From NCBI GenBank assembly GCA_029865485.1, contig JAOUGT010000004.1:1-54736 (forward strand): 54,736 nt of DNA, given 5' to 3'. A program made the position numbers and the translations under genes. This document shows positions 23,245 to 46,576 of this stretch, in pieces. The first letter of the stretch is position 1. The number at the start of each line of letters is the position of its first letter. Origin of the DNA: Nitrospira sp. (GTDB lineage: Bacteria; Nitrospirota; Nitrospiria; Nitrospirales; Nitrospiraceae). Below the pieces are notes generated by a model. That model had not been told where the DNA came from. It was given only the letters and a program-made list of their open reading frames with translations, and did not search any database.

Positions 23245-23278
23245 CAAGAGGGTAGGTAATCCTACCACTACCCTCTTG
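23245..23278. terminator. Strong 11-bp hairpin behind the SH3 gene
   Basis: CAAGAGGGTAG and CTACCCTCTTG pair perfectly, 22 bp after the SH3 gene stop. An alternative inner pairing, GGTAGG taat CCTACC, competes with the full stem. There is no T-run, so intrinsic termination is uncertain. It could also influence the promoter immediately downstream. Confidence 0.45.
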
Positions 23279-40760: not shown

Positions 40761-43061
40761 ATGATGCAGAATGTCCAGGAGCTCCAGCACAAGGTCGATC
40801 ATGCGGAACATCTGAAGCGTATCACCGCACAAATTCACGCAGCCAGCCATCTTGACCACATCCTCCTTGATCTTCACAAGGACATCCTCAGCGTCTTTGA
40901 TGCTCAAGACCTGACGCTCTTCGCGTTCGACTCGGAGAAGAAGGAAATCTTCTCGAAGGTTCCCCATCTCGACGGCGCCGAAGAAGTCCGTATTCCGATT
41001 AGCGAGCAGAGCTTGGCCGGATTCTGTGCGAAGTACCTTCGCCCCGTCAATATCACCGATGCGTACAACCTTGCAGAACTGCGCGCGATCCACCCGGCGT
41101 TGCTCCACGACACGTCCTACGACAAACGCACCGGCTTCAGGACCAAACAAGTCCTGACCTACCCGGTCGTGGCAGACAATAAATACCTCATGGGCGTGCT
41201 CCAACTACTCAACAAAAAGAGTGGCAGTCGCTTTACGCGAAAGGACGAAGAAGCTGTCGACGAAATCGCCAAGGCCCTGGGCATCGCCTTTTTCAATCTC
41301 AAAAAAACATCCAAAAAGAATCCCACCAAGTTCGATCTCTTGGTCGGCAGCAACCGCATTACGCAGAACGATTTGGAGCAGGCGCTCGCCGATTCTCGCA
41401 AGGGCTTGAGCGACCTGGAAAGCATTTTGCTCGAAAAGTACAAGGTCCCGAAACTCGATCTCGGCAAATCCCTCGCCCAGTTCTACAAGTGTCCCTACAT
41501 TGAGTACAGCGAACGAACGATCGTTGATGCCGAACTGTTGAAGAACCTCAATGTCGACTACCTCAAAAAGAACCACTGGATGCCGCTGAAGCGGGACCGT
41601 ACGGCCATCGAGATCTTGACTGATGATCCAGGAGATCTGGACCGCGTCCAAGACATCAAGCGCACCTTCCCAGGACTCAATATTCGGTTCGCGGTCAGCC
41701 TTCGCCGTGACATTGCGCAGTTTCTCACGTCGGTAACTGGACAAAGTGACGGCGGAGGGCGGAAACTTGATGAAAATGTGTCTGATATTCTCGGTGAACT
41801 GGTCACTGAGGCGCAGGCCGAGGCCATGGAGGAATCTTCCGCCGCCGGGCTCGACGAGAACGACAGCGCCATCGTCCGGCTGGCCAACCAGATCATTGCC
41901 GACGCCTACCGTCAAAATGCTTCGGATATTCACATCGAACCGTATGGAGAGAAGCGAGAGACCCTGGTCAGGTTCAGAGTCGACGGGGACTGTTTCGAAT
42001 ATATGAAAATTCCGCAGAGCTACCGGCGTGCCATCGTCTCCCGACTCAAAATCATGGCCAGTCTGGACATCGCCGAGCGCCGCAAACCTCAAGATGGAAA
42101 GATTAAATTCAAACTTTCCGAGACAAAAGAAATCGAACTCCGCGTGGCCACACTTCCCACTGCTGGATATAACGAAGACGTGGTGATGCGTATCCTCGCG
42201 GCAAGCGAGCCACTGCCGCTCGACAAGATGGGATTCTCAGATCGCAATCTCCGAGTCCTCAAGGAAATATCGGAAAAACCCTACGGCATCATTTTATGTG
42301 TCGGTCCGACTGGCTCAGGGAAAACGACCACCTTGCACTCGGTCCTAGGGAACATCAACACCCCGGACATCAAGATCTGGACCGCGGAAGATCCAGTCGA
42401 AATTACTCAGTACGGACTGCGACAGGTGCAAGTCCAGCCAAAGATCGGGTTCACCTTCGCAAGTGCCATGCGGGCATTTCTTCGTGCCGACCCGGACGTC
42501 ATCATGGTGGGAGAAATGCGGGATAAGGAAACGGCCGACACCGGGATCGAGGCGTCCCTCACCGGCCATCTCGTCTTGAGCACCTTACATACCAACAGTG
42601 CGGTGGAGACCGTTACCCGCCTGCTCGATATGGGCTGCGACCCGTTCAGCTTTGCCGACGCAATGTTGGGCGTGTTGGCACAGCGGTTGGCTCGCCGGAT
42701 CTGCAAGGACTGCAAGGAACAGTATGTCGGAACCAAAGAGGAGTACGAAGAGCTCCGACAAGGATACGGGCCTGACTATTGGGACAAGCTTGATATCAAG
42801 CAAGATAATACGTTCAGGTTGACTCGCGGGAAAGGCTGTGAAACCTGCAATCGATCCGGCTTTAAGGGACGCGTGGCGCTACACGAACTACTCCTCGGAA
42901 CAGACCGCATGAAACGGATGGTGCAACAAAAGGCGCGCACTGAAGATATGTTGAAGGCTGCGCTTGAGGATGGGATGACTACGCTCGTCCAAGACGGGAT
43001 CCATAAAGTCATGCAAGGCCACACGACATATAAGGAAGTGAAAGCCGTCGCCATCAAATAG
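40761..43061 (+). CDS. GAF-MshEN-GspE/PilB-type secretion or pilus ATPase
   Basis: A 766-residue hexameric motor ATPase of the type II secretion/type IV pilus family. Residues ~15-175 form a GAF domain (LKRITAQIHAASHLDHILLDL, PISEQSLAGFCAKYLRPVNITDAY, LTYPVVADNKYLMGVLQLLNKKSG), an uncommon addition. Residues ~195-330 resemble the MshEN region, known to bind c-di-GMP. The ATPase has Walker A GPTGSGKTTTL, the Asp box TAEDPVEITQYG, Walker B DPDVIMVGEMRD and the His box LSTLHTNSAVETV, then a CxxC zinc module (CKDCKEQY, CETCNRSGFKGR). No pilin or secretin genes lie nearby. Translation starts at one of two adjacent ATGs. Confidence 0.92.
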   Translation: MMQNVQELQHKVDHAEHLKRITAQIHAASHLDHILLDLHKDILSVFDAQDLTLFAFDSEKKEIFSKVPHLDGAEEVRIPISEQSLAGFCAKYLRPVNITDAYNLAELRAIHPALLHDTSYDKRTGFRTKQVLTYPVVADNKYLMGVLQLLNKKSGSRFTRKDEEAVDEIAKALGIAFFNLKKTSKKNPTKFDLLVGSNRITQNDLEQALADSRKGLSDLESILLEKYKVPKLDLGKSLAQFYKCPYIEYSERTIVDAELLKNLNVDYLKKNHWMPLKRDRTAIEILTDDPGDLDRVQDIKRTFPGLNIRFAVSLRRDIAQFLTSVTGQSDGGGRKLDENVSDILGELVTEAQAEAMEESSAAGLDENDSAIVRLANQIIADAYRQNASDIHIEPYGEKRETLVRFRVDGDCFEYMKIPQSYRRAIVSRLKIMASLDIAERRKPQDGKIKFKLSETKEIELRVATLPTAGYNEDVVMRILAASEPLPLDKMGFSDRNLRVLKEISEKPYGIILCVGPTGSGKTTTLHSVLGNINTPDIKIWTAEDPVEITQYGLRQVQVQPKIGFTFASAMRAFLRADPDVIMVGEMRDKETADTGIEASLTGHLVLSTLHTNSAVETVTRLLDMGCDPFSFADAMLGVLAQRLARRICKDCKEQYVGTKEEYEELRQGYGPDYWDKLDIKQDNTFRLTRGKGCETCNRSGFKGRVALHELLLGTDRMKRMVQQKARTEDMLKAALEDGMTTLVQDGIHKVMQGHTTYKEVKAVAIK

Positions 43062-43101
43062 CGGTTCAATCAACCGTCGCCTGCATTGCAGACTCCAGCT
43101 C

Positions 43102-43130
43102 TTCAGTTTCTACACACAACCAGATAGAAT
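43102..43130 (+). promoter_or_regulatory. Possible promoter of the mltC-like gene
   Basis: TTCAGT (43102-43107) and TAGAAT (43125-43130) are spaced 17 bp, with a start near 43137 and a GGAGGTG ribosome binding site before the ATG at 43160. The -35 is weak. Confidence 0.35.
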
Positions 43131-43159
43131 AGGCCCATTCTTACGGAGGTGCCCTTACC

Positions 43160-44392
43160 ATGCGAGCATCGATCTTCCTGCTTGCCTCACTCCTATTGCT
43201 CGGTGGATGCGAATCCGCGGACCGAGTGCTGACCAACACGGAACGAGTGCTCGGCAGTCGTACCGGACGGACCGTTCTCGACATTGCCACGGGGAAAGAC
43301 CCCAAACAAATACTCAAAGAGCGCGTCGATGCCTACCAGCGCGACCCCGAGGCCGTCCTCAGAGATCTGCGGACGATTCAACGCGATTTCAACACGATCA
43401 TGACTGCCCTGACAGGGAAGGTCCGACAGACCTGGGGCGAGAAGGAAGTCAAGATTCCGGAACAAAAAAAGTACGTCAAATATACCCAGAACTACATGAG
43501 CCGCACCATCGTCGATTTCGACAATGGGACAATCGTGGTGGAAACCCTGGACGACAAATCACCCAAAGAGAGTTTGAAAAACGCCATCGTGACAACCTTG
43601 CTGACACCGGACGACCCACGCTCTGTCGATCTGTTTTCCGATAAGCCGGTGACCCTGACCAGCGACCATGCTCCCTATTTACTAGGGCTGGTGCTGGATC
43701 AGGCAGGACAGCCGATCCGCACCCCAGCTCAGGCGGAAGCCTTTGCCGCATCCAGTCTCGAGAGCGCCAAGGCAAGGCCGGTCGACCAGAACGGCGTCAC
43801 AAAACAAGCGCTGATTGCCGAAATCAAGATGGTGGCGAACTTCTCGAACAAACAAGCGGACAAATATCGATCAACGGTCACCAGATTTGCCGAGCAATTC
43901 AAAATCAGCCCAAGCCTCATTTTTGCCGTGATTCGGACCGAGAGTAACTTCAACCCATTTGCCGTGAGCTCCGCTCCTGCCTTTGGTTTGATGCAGCTGG
44001 TTCCAACCAGCGGAGGTCGCGATGCGTATCGAAAAGCAAAGGGGAAAGACACAATTCCCTCGCGCGAGTACCTATTCGACCCGGAGAACAACATCGAACT
44101 CGGCAGCGCCTATCTGAACGTCCTGTCGTACAACCTGCTTGAACAGGTCGATAATGAGGTGTCACGAGAATATTGTGTCATCTCGGCATATAACACCGGA
44201 ACGGGAAATGTCTTCAAGGCGTTTGCGGCCAACTCCACGTCCGCCGTCAATCAGATTAACAGCCTTGAGCCGCCGGCCGTCTATGACCGGTTACGCACCA
44301 ATCTCCCGTATCAAGAAACCAGAGACTATCTGGTGAAAGTCGTGGGCTTTCGCAAGCAGTTTGTTTCGCTGGCAGACGGCCCCGGGCGTTGA
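43160..44392 (+). CDS. mltC: Lytic murein transglycosylase, MltC-like lipoprotein
   Basis: Lipobox LLLGGCES places the enzyme as a lipoprotein (Cys 17). The first half (residues ~30-210) matches the DUF3393-type N-terminal domain of MltC (YVKYTQNYMSRTIVDFDNGTIVVETL). The second half is an SLT domain: IFAVIRTESNFNPFAVSSAPAFGLMQLVPTSGGRDAY with the catalytic Glu, then ISAYNTGTGNVFKAF. It cleaves peptidoglycan glycan strands with formation of 1,6-anhydro ends. At 410 residues it is longer than E. coli MltC. TTACGGAGGTGCCC provides the ribosome binding site. Confidence 0.92.
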   Translation: MRASIFLLASLLLLGGCESADRVLTNTERVLGSRTGRTVLDIATGKDPKQILKERVDAYQRDPEAVLRDLRTIQRDFNTIMTALTGKVRQTWGEKEVKIPEQKKYVKYTQNYMSRTIVDFDNGTIVVETLDDKSPKESLKNAIVTTLLTPDDPRSVDLFSDKPVTLTSDHAPYLLGLVLDQAGQPIRTPAQAEAFAASSLESAKARPVDQNGVTKQALIAEIKMVANFSNKQADKYRSTVTRFAEQFKISPSLIFAVIRTESNFNPFAVSSAPAFGLMQLVPTSGGRDAYRKAKGKDTIPSREYLFDPENNIELGSAYLNVLSYNLLEQVDNEVSREYCVISAYNTGTGNVFKAFAANSTSAVNQINSLEPPAVYDRLRTNLPYQETRDYLVKVVGFRKQFVSLADGPGR

Positions 44393-44442: not shown

Positions 44443-44841
44443 TCAGGCGGTCAGTCTGGCCTCGGGCTTCGACTGATGAGTCATGAAGGCCTGAAGGTGT
44501 TGGTTGTCGTGAGGAGACAGCCCCTCAAACTCTACCCCATAAATCTGTTCCTTGCCCCAGCGAACGGTCGCAGTTTCAATCACCATCGATGCTGACTGAG
44601 TCGGCAATCGCAACTGCATGGCAATGCGGTCACCAGGCGTAATCACCGCTTCCGTCATGACCCGCACCCCTTTTTCCGACACATCATAGACGATCCCTAC
44701 CCCTTGTTCGGACACGCCGTTTCTCAAGCGCCCCACACGCGCAAACGAACAGGGAAAGGGAGCCGACACGCGGACCCGCGGATATCGGCGCAACTGAGGC
44801 ACACTCCTTACACCATTTGAATTGAAGTCTGGATCATCCAT
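44443..44841 (-). CDS. PilZ domain protein, second of a tandem pair
   Basis: A stand-alone PilZ domain of about 132 residues. LRRYPRVRVSAPF holds the RxxxR motif and YDVSEKGVRVMTE the DxSxxG motif, so c-di-GMP binding should be intact. It resembles the neighbouring PilZ protein closely in layout and is probably its duplicate. ATG 44841 is preferred because GGGAGGAGGAG lies nine bases upstream; ATG 44847 would leave only three bases. The ribosome binding site sits in the 3' end of the preceding PilZ gene, so the two are coupled. Confidence 0.88.
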   Translation of the reverse strand: MDDPDFNSNGVRSVPQLRRYPRVRVSAPFPCSFARVGRLRNGVSEQGVGIVYDVSEKGVRVMTEAVITPGDRIAMQLRLPTQSASMVIETATVRWGKEQIYGVEFEGLSPHDNQHLQAFMTHQSKPEARLTA

Positions 44842-44847
44842 GATCAT

Positions 44848-45228
44848 CTACTCCTCCTCCCTGGCTGTGGCATTCATGTACGCCACCAACTGCTGAGACG
44901 CCGACTCGGACACCATCCGGAATGCAAGTCCATGGAACTGATGATTCCGCCAACACACAGTCGCAACCGCGACTTCTGCCGGAGGAGCGCTCTTAGTCAA
45001 TCGGAGGGTCAGGGACACCTGATCACCCGGCTCGATCGGCGCATCCGTACTGACACAGACCCCGCCGGTCGACAGATCATGAACCAGGCCGACATCATGC
45101 ACGGATTTGCGAAACCACCGGCCTGCGCGCAGTGAAGAAAGAGAACAACTGAAAGGCGTAAGAATCCGAACCCGAGGGTATCGCCGTGGCTTGCTGACAG
45201 TCGCACTCGGCTGTTGAATCGTTTGCAT
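44848..45228 (-). CDS. PilZ domain protein, first of a tandem pair
   Basis: A 126-residue PilZ protein with both ligand motifs: RRYPRVRILTPF (RxxxR) and VHDLSTGGVCVSTD (DxSxxG). It would bind c-di-GMP and pass the signal on by protein contact. There is no other domain and no signal peptide. The start codon comes four bases after a perfect 12-bp hairpin whose 3' arm contains the GAGGTGG ribosome binding site, so translation is probably conditional. It follows rhlE by 61 bp on the same strand. Confidence 0.88.
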   Translation of the reverse strand: MQTIQQPSATVSKPRRYPRVRILTPFSCSLSSLRAGRWFRKSVHDVGLVHDLSTGGVCVSTDAPIEPGDQVSLTLRLTKSAPPAEVAVATVCWRNHQFHGLAFRMVSESASQQLVAYMNATAREEE

Positions 45229-45231
45229 GAC

Positions 45232-45266
45232 CCACCTCGTGAGGACTACTGTATCTCACGAGGTGG
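45232..45266 (-). promoter_or_regulatory. Hairpin sequestering the ribosome binding site of the PilZ gene
   Basis: On the minus strand the sequence reads CCACCTCGTGAG, an 11-nt loop, then CTCACGAGGTGG, gtc and the ATG. The 12-bp stem is perfect, and its 3' arm contains the only ribosome binding site (GAGGTGG). No T-run follows, so it is not an intrinsic terminator for rhlE. Translation would require opening of the stem by heat, a protein such as a helicase, a small RNA, or ribosomes arriving from rhlE. Confidence 0.7.
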
Positions 45267-45289
45267 ATTCTGCGAACTATTTTCCAACT

Positions 45290-46576
45290 TTATGTACGTA
45301 GTGCCGACGTCGTCCCATGTGACGACGGCTTGGCATGAGGCCGTCGACGGCTGCGGAATGGGCGGGATTGATCAGGTCTTGCCTGACTTCCAGCTGAACG
45401 ATTAGTCCGAGGAATATCTTGGCCCTTGCTCGGACTTGCATGCACTGGAGGCCTGCTTCCTGGAACAACCGGAACGGCCTGTCCCAGAAGACGCTCGATC
45501 GCGCGGAGTTGTTGCGTATCTTCGCTGGTCACAAAACTCGTGGCACGGCCGGTCGTTTTCATCCGAGCCGTACGCCCGATCCGATGCACGTAGTCTTCGG
45601 GAACGTTCGGCAGGTCGAAATTGATCACGTGACCGATGTTGGCAACATCAATCCCACGGGCCGCAATATCCGTCGCCACCAGGACCCGAAAGGATCCTCG
45701 TCGAAAACCTTCCAGCGCGGCACGTCTCTGTGACAAGCTCCGGTCACCGTGCAACACCGCCACCCGATGACCCGCATGATCCAGCATGCGCCCGACTCGA
45801 TCGGCACGGTGCTTCGTTCGGGTAAAAACAAGCGCAGTATCTTTATCGGCCTCCAAGAGAGTCAAGAGCAGATCGGGCTTATCGGCATGCGAGGTATGAT
45901 GCACCGCTTGGGTCACGCCGTCAGCGGTTGTCGCGGATGGTGTAACCATGACGCGGACAGGGTTGTTGACACTGGCTTGAACCAACCGGGCGAGATCCGC
46001 CGGGAGCGTAGCCGAAAAGAGCAAGGTCTGCCGCTCCTCCGGTAATGCATCAAGAATCTGATTGATTTGAGGCGCAAAGCCCATATCCAACATCCGGTCT
46101 GCCTCATCCAACACCAACATCTTGATGGACGACAACAAAATGGTGCCGTTCCACATATGATCAAGAAGTCGACCCGGCGTCGCCACCAGGATATCCGGTC
46201 GCTGTCGCAAGCCTCGCACTTGGGCTTGCATGTCGGCGCCCCCCACGATGACGGTGGCCGAGATGCGCCGACTCCGTCCAAGTTTCTCAATCGTCGTCAG
46301 CGTCTGCAAGGCAAGCTCACGCGTCGGCGCAAGGATCAACGCTTTCGGCTGCCCTTTGGGCAAGGTGGACAACCGTTCAACCATCGGAATCACAAACGCC
46401 GCCGTTTTTCCCGTGCCGGTCTGGGCGCATCCGATCACATCTCGTCCCGCCAGAGCGGGAGGGATGGCTTGTTCTTGAATAGGAGTTGGTGAAACAAACC
46501 TGGCATCAGCCAGGTCCTGTAAAAGAGCCTCGGACAAGCCGAGGGCATGAAAAGTGCGTGAAACAGACGTATCCAC
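45290..46576 (-). CDS. rhlE: DEAD-box RNA helicase, RhlE type
   Basis: An ATP-dependent RNA helicase with all core motifs: Q motif FVSPTPIQEQAIP, AQTGTGKTAAF (I), PTRELALQT (Ia), TPGRLLDHM (Ib), DEADRMLDMGF (II), SATLP (III), ATDIAARGIDV (V) and HRIGRTARM (VI). A basic, disordered C-terminal tail of about 55 residues rich in Arg, Ser and His follows, as in RhlE. Likely roles are ribosome assembly and RNA turnover. It is the first gene of an apparent rhlE-PilZ-PilZ transcript; the DNA between it and the PilZ gene forms a strong RNA hairpin. Confidence 0.94.
   Translation of the reverse strand: MDTSVSRTFHALGLSEALLQDLADARFVSPTPIQEQAIPPALAGRDVIGCAQTGTGKTAAFVIPMVERLSTLPKGQPKALILAPTRELALQTLTTIEKLGRSRRISATVIVGGADMQAQVRGLRQRPDILVATPGRLLDHMWNGTILLSSIKMLVLDEADRMLDMGFAPQINQILDALPEERQTLLFSATLPADLARLVQASVNNPVRVMVTPSATTADGVTQAVHHTSHADKPDLLLTLLEADKDTALVFTRTKHRADRVGRMLDHAGHRVAVLHGDRSLSQRRAALEGFRRGSFRVLVATDIAARGIDVANIGHVINFDLPNVPEDYVHRIGRTARMKTTGRATSFVTSEDTQQLRAIERLLGQAVPVVPGSRPPVHASPSKGQDIPRTNRSAGSQARPDQSRPFRSRRRPHAKPSSHGTTSALRT

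Follow-up and report, generated by a model that had tools for sequence, protein, structure and literature searches.

Hairpin between rhlE and pilZ1

Why should the Shine-Dalgarno (SD) sequence of a gene be enclosed in a perfect hairpin directly behind the gene of an RNA helicase? This question was raised by a 54,736-nucleotide stretch of Nitrospira DNA (the window hereafter), in which rhlE and the tandem genes pilZ1 and pilZ2 follow one another in the same direction on the minus strand (Table 1). The original prediction had described a perfect 12-bp stem over the PilZ SD immediately after rhlE, burying the only ribosome binding site three bases before the ATG, with a 5' arm that imitates the anti-SD, and each of these points was confirmed here. 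Read in the sense direction, the 61 nt that separate rhlE from pilZ1 contain ...GGAAAATAG TTCGCA GAAT CCACCTCGTGAG A TACAGT AGTC CTCACGAGGTGG GTC ATG. The two arms form a perfect stem of 12 bp (45266-45232, minus strand) around an 11-nt loop (ATACAGTAGTC), and the stem is followed by GTC and then by the ATG of pilZ1 (45228-45226), so that it ends three bases before the start codon. GAGGTGG, inside the stem, is the sole SD-like sequence, and CCACCTC in the 5' arm does resemble an anti-SD.

Table 1 Features of the rhlE-pilZ locus in the window
Feature	Coordinates	Strand	Description
rhlE	45290..46576	-	DEAD-box RNA helicase gene, from which readthrough RNA is presumed to come; Pfam DEAD and Helicase_C
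A-tract	45280..45283	-	Sense AAAA; may serve as an UP element; three of its A residues do not vary among 47 distinct sequences
Putative -35 hexamer	45271..45276	-	Sense TTCGCA
5' arm of stem	45255..45266	-	Sense CCACCTCGTGAG; doubles as part of the promoter spacer; covarying stem
Putative -10 hexamer	45248..45253	-	Sense TACAGT, in the hairpin loop
Inferred transcription start	45240..45242	-	Inside the 3' arm, placed about 7 nt past the -10
3' arm of stem	45232..45243	-	Sense CTCACGAGGTGG; SD GAGG(T) at 45238-45234
pilZ1	44848..45228	-	Single-domain PilZ protein of 126 aa; Pfam PilZ, E 2.4e-10
pilZ2	44443..44847	-	Second PilZ gene; Pfam PilZ, E 7e-12

RxxxR and DxSxxG motifs could be read from the sequence of PilZ1. 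According to the ORF coordinates, the ATG of pilZ2 stands immediately 3' of the pilZ1 stop codon; thus, the two genes are probably co-translated. Convergent with this pair, ORF translations at 40761-44392 revealed two genes, the first for a GspE/PilB-like ATPase whose start is GAF-like and the next for a lytic transglycosylase-like protein.

Folding of the mRNA strand gave a z-score of -4.95, and none of 200 shuffled sequences was equally stable. Within the 54.7-kb window, no other perfect inverted repeat of at least 12 bp had a loop of 3-20 nt, and Markov shuffles of the whole window contained zero or one such repeat (one in two of the eight shuffles). Next in length among the perfect inverted repeats of the window was CAAGAGGGTAG/CTACCCTCTTG with a 12-nt loop (23245-23278), which lies between two plus-strand ORFs, just before a TATAAT that is located approximately 50 nt upstream of a gene for a HAD-like hydrolase. 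An intrinsic terminator was considered for the hairpin behind rhlE and rejected: it has no U-tract, GTCATGC comes after the stem, and the terminator scan listed none at this position.

Conservation in the genus Nitrospira

In a DNA search, pilZ1 orthologues from across the genus were found to be preceded by the element, and nearly all relatives in the named collection were labelled Nitrospira. A covariance model, which was built from 19 sequences, matched 55 of 79 Nitrospira genomes at one locus per genome (weaker second matches were the same site read in reverse), and none of the 34 further genera of the order that were sampled gave a match. Wherever the contig was long enough to tell (53 hairpin loci), rhlE was the gene immediately upstream, on the same strand. 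A chance origin is excluded because both conservation and covariation (see below) were observed in 55 genomes, and the hairpin is a real, selected element. With one locus per genome, a dispersed repeat or a regulon-wide operator was also rejected. We found no paper on the hairpin locus between rhlE and pilZ in the literature.

Covariation and selection on the RNA

The covariation check that the original prediction had called for was positive, in that pairing was kept by compensatory changes across the 55 genomes. Pairing was seen in 98.4% of the stem cells of the 19-sequence alignment, two-sided changes occurred at five stem pairs, and 17 stem cells had changed on both sides, compared with 4.7 in shuffles; the covariation score was 0.295, versus 0.172 for shuffles and no more than 0.082 for slid controls. 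Examples of compensated arms are CCTTGTGAG/CTCACAAGG, CCTCCTGAG/CTCAGGAGG (G002) and GTGCG/CGCAC (G060). Nearly all lineages kept 10-12 pairs in this way, rather than tolerating weak or bulged pairs.

The direction of the substitutions was also analyzed. Parsimony on the rhlE tree revealed 17 double compensated changes and, in the mRNA sense, 20 changes from a Watson-Crick pair to G-U versus a single change to A-C, whereas the two mismatches are expected equally in a DNA inverted repeat. When the three pairs holding the AGG of the SD were left out, since the SD itself biases them, the ratio was still 13 to 1 (one-sided binomial probabilities, worked by hand, of approximately 1e-5 for 20:1 and 1e-3 for 13:1). 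Thus, the excess of G-U points to selection on the RNA of this strand, and judged from this substitution pattern, transcripts that include both arms are produced and their folding is of consequence.

Promoter-like core

Three blocks were fixed beyond what pairing would constrain: the A-tract, the TTC-type hexamer and a TAnnnT in the loop. The spacing between the hexamer and TAnnnT was invariant at exactly 17 nt. The -35-like T, T and C were present in 47, 43 and 44 of the 47 distinct sequences, respectively, the hexamer occurring as TTCGCA, TTCCCA, TTCGCG and variants of these. TAnnnT, in the forms TACAGT, TAGAGT, TAAAGT, TACTCT, TACTGT, TACGGT and TATAGT, was found in 54 of the 55 hairpins, a count for which the pattern search demanded TA...T, so that the invariance of the letters rests on unconstrained alignments and on there being one exception, G015 (CAGAGT; pilZ1 is broken there). 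The most constrained bases of a -10 element, A and T, are those kept in TAnnnT, and variation in loop length was confined to its 3' side.

It is probable from these features that the core is a sigma70-like promoter whose -10 lies in the hairpin loop. Its match to the consensus is four of six positions in the -35 and four of six in the -10, and a consensus scan did not flag the site. Neither TACAGT nor TTCGCA was enriched in a sample of upstream regions from G023, where any signal is blurred by operons and by the simplicity of the ORF calls. The original prediction did not include this conserved core, and its presence shifts the likely role of the hairpin from the sensing of a condition to the distinction of two mRNA origins. 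Both the sequestration of the SD and its importance for function were upheld, whereas an RNA thermometer is not supported and a switch operated in trans by RhlE is not favored.

Translation according to mRNA origin

No terminator-like site was detected by the scan between rhlE and pilZ1. RNA polymerase running past rhlE would transcribe both arms, and the resulting hairpin of 12-14 bp would bury the SD; on the rhlE mRNA, PilZ1 would hardly be translated, and the same would apply to PilZ2 through coupling. On the other hand, the loop -10 (TACAGT), together with the -35 (TTCGCA) 17 bp upstream, would direct a start at the 3' arm or slightly within it. Since a start about 7 nt past the -10 falls inside this arm, the 5' arm would be missing from the RNA, and such a short mRNA would leave the SD available for the translation of PilZ. 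The level of PilZ may thus be insulated from transcription of the helicase gene and set by its own promoter. The median of the predicted openness of the SD was 0.0004 for readthrough RNA and rose to 0.33 when the RNA began at the inferred start; for the window, prediction at 37 °C gave 0.000 for the readthrough RNA versus 0.16 for the short RNA, which appeared only modestly open. We favor, with moderate confidence, the view that PilZ translation depends on the origin of the mRNA, readthrough RNA being silenced and RNA from the loop promoter being translated.

Genes in bacteria follow closely upon one another, head to tail, and their termination is leaky. To our knowledge, it has rarely been shown how a gene in need of separate regulation escapes translation off the message of its neighbor. 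In phage T4, the ribosome binding site of gene e (lysozyme) is covered by a hairpin in the long early transcripts, promoters just upstream yield well-translated transcripts without the 5' strand, and an effect of approximately 100-fold was measured (PMC3014915). The present locus resembles gene e in that the SD is hidden by a hairpin in RNA started upstream (here according to prediction and covariation), and in that co-directional upstream transcription meets no terminator-like site (here from rhlE, in 53 of 53 assessable loci). However, gene e is part of a phage, has a late promoter (TATAAATA) and is subject to temporal switching, whereas the element described here belongs to a chromosomal PilZ gene and has a sigma70-like core with the putative -10 in the loop, known from sequence and prediction. 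For I-TevI, I-TevII, I-TevIII and segB of T4, as well as mobE of Aeh1, the hairpin hides the ribosome binding site solely in readthrough RNA of the host gene, and the promoter is placed so that the gene's own RNA misses one arm (PMC2988022). These are homing endonuclease genes nested in phage operons, in contrast with the bacterial signalling gene studied here. In the case of the IS10 transposase, readthrough RNA from outside folds over the start region and RNA from the internal promoter does not; IS10 is a mobile element, whereas no transposase or repeat copies were found here.

The element, a conserved SD-hiding hairpin that is selected at the RNA level and has a probable promoter in its loop, is probably a cellular variant of the phage T4 device. 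If true, this would be a conserved and testable cellular case of a device so far documented in phage T4, with a signature that can be searched for, namely a loop that contains the -10, a 3' arm that contains the SD and a neighbor in the same direction. Searching 400 kb of G023 and the window for other hairpins whose loop holds TAnnnT and whose 3' arm holds an SD returned weak, chance-like matches only. A sequestered SD alone does not make a sensor, and the position of the promoter should be checked first.

Loss of the hairpin where the genes are separated

In eight genomes (G024, G025, G029, G032, G065, G076, G093 and G095; L108-L111, L116, L117, L119 and L120), rhlE and pilZ1 are separated by approximately 3.2 kb of other genes, and the neighbor of pilZ1 was divergently transcribed in all four of those examined for ORFs. 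The hairpin was absent from all eight, both before pilZ1 and after rhlE. TACAGT was retained in each of the eight hairpin-less orthologues, and in an unconstrained alignment the AAAA, the TT, the 17-nt spacing, the GTGAGATACAGT block and the ATG all matched. These genomes form a single clade, which is sister to the hairpin-bearing G060, and the loss of the hairpin thus counts as one event and not eight. In the separated genomes, rhlE now stands before a co-directional gene beginning MDRSLINLLLEGNVMPETQS.

The general proposal would be that a chromosomal gene family carries a promoter-in-the-loop hairpin as a filter of transcript origin, with the SD closed in readthrough from the helicase gene and open from its own promoter, kept genus-wide by compensatory evolution and lost once the upstream gene had moved away. 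For this proposal in full, we regard the case as evenly balanced.

Hairpins beside decayed pilZ1 and alternative explanations

The main weakness of a dependence on mRNA origin is that the hairpin outlasts the decay of pilZ1. In a clade of 11 genomes (G007, G019, G028, G034, G061, G064, G066, G067, G068, G088 and G102; L047-L050 and L097-L103), pilZ1 is truncated and has lost its N-terminal part, yet the arms CCTCGTGAGATAC and TGTGTCTCACGAGGTGGAT are invariant. The remaining PilZ fragment in this clade begins at a GTG or TTG just past the SD, without the RxxxR c-di-GMP motif and with DxSxxG mostly kept; in some of these genomes pilZ1 stops early or is frameshifted. In G090 (L095) and G091 (L094), where the element lies downstream of rhlE, pilZ1 has ACG for ATG and the SD is lost. 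Despite this decay, the stem shows a compensatory change from T-A to A-T, and a compensated hairpin without a pilZ1 start is evidence for a second role. Possibly, the hairpin beside a decayed pilZ1 still matters for the coupled pilZ2, or it has another function such as protection of the end of the rhlE mRNA.

The latter could even be its principal task: the hairpin would be a 3'-end barrier that shields the rhlE mRNA once its end has been formed by trimming or by Rho-dependent termination, and the overlap with the PilZ SD would follow from the 61-nt gap. The strict association with rhlE and the persistence at broken pilZ1, including the change in G090 and G091, argue for such a role, which is also compatible with RNA-strand selection. 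However, it leaves unexplained both the fixed TTC-N17-TAnnnT core that stretches from before the loop into it and the fact that the arm always lies on the SD in intact genes; moreover, rhlE of the separated clade has no comparable hairpin, although another gene now follows it there. We regard this explanation as unlikely.

A cis-acting switch on a single long mRNA, in which a protein, a small RNA, a ligand or RhlE opens the hairpin and turns PilZ on, would fit the conserved loop and the buried SD, and appears distinctly improbable. There was no Rfam match above chance (the best matches near the element scored 16-18 bits versus gathering scores of 64-100), and a known RNA family was rejected; furthermore, the loop constraint is that of a -10 pattern (T, A, any three, T), which outlives the hairpin. 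The eight genomes above speak indirectly against the helicase-dependent version that had been proposed initially: RhlE acts in trans, yet loss of the hairpin accompanies loss of adjacency.

The inverted repeat flanking the putative -10 might also suggest a DNA operator for a dimeric repressor, the RNA hairpin being incidental. This is highly improbable in view of the 20:1 preference for G-U over A-C in the mRNA sense, the change of arm sequence while pairing is kept, the varying inter-arm spacing and the single site per genome.

Finally, ROSE and fourU thermometers pair the SD in a 5' leader hairpin whose imperfect stem melts at physiological temperature. An RNA thermometer, as had originally been suggested for this SD-bearing hairpin adjoining the start codon, is scarcely credible here, since the predicted openness of the SD in readthrough RNA did not exceed 0.003 from 4 to 80 °C, no match to ROSE or any other Rfam thermometer was obtained, and, in contrast with the ROSE and fourU stems, the PilZ hairpin is a long perfect stem whose 10-12 pairs were compensated, not weakened or bulged, in nearly all lineages.
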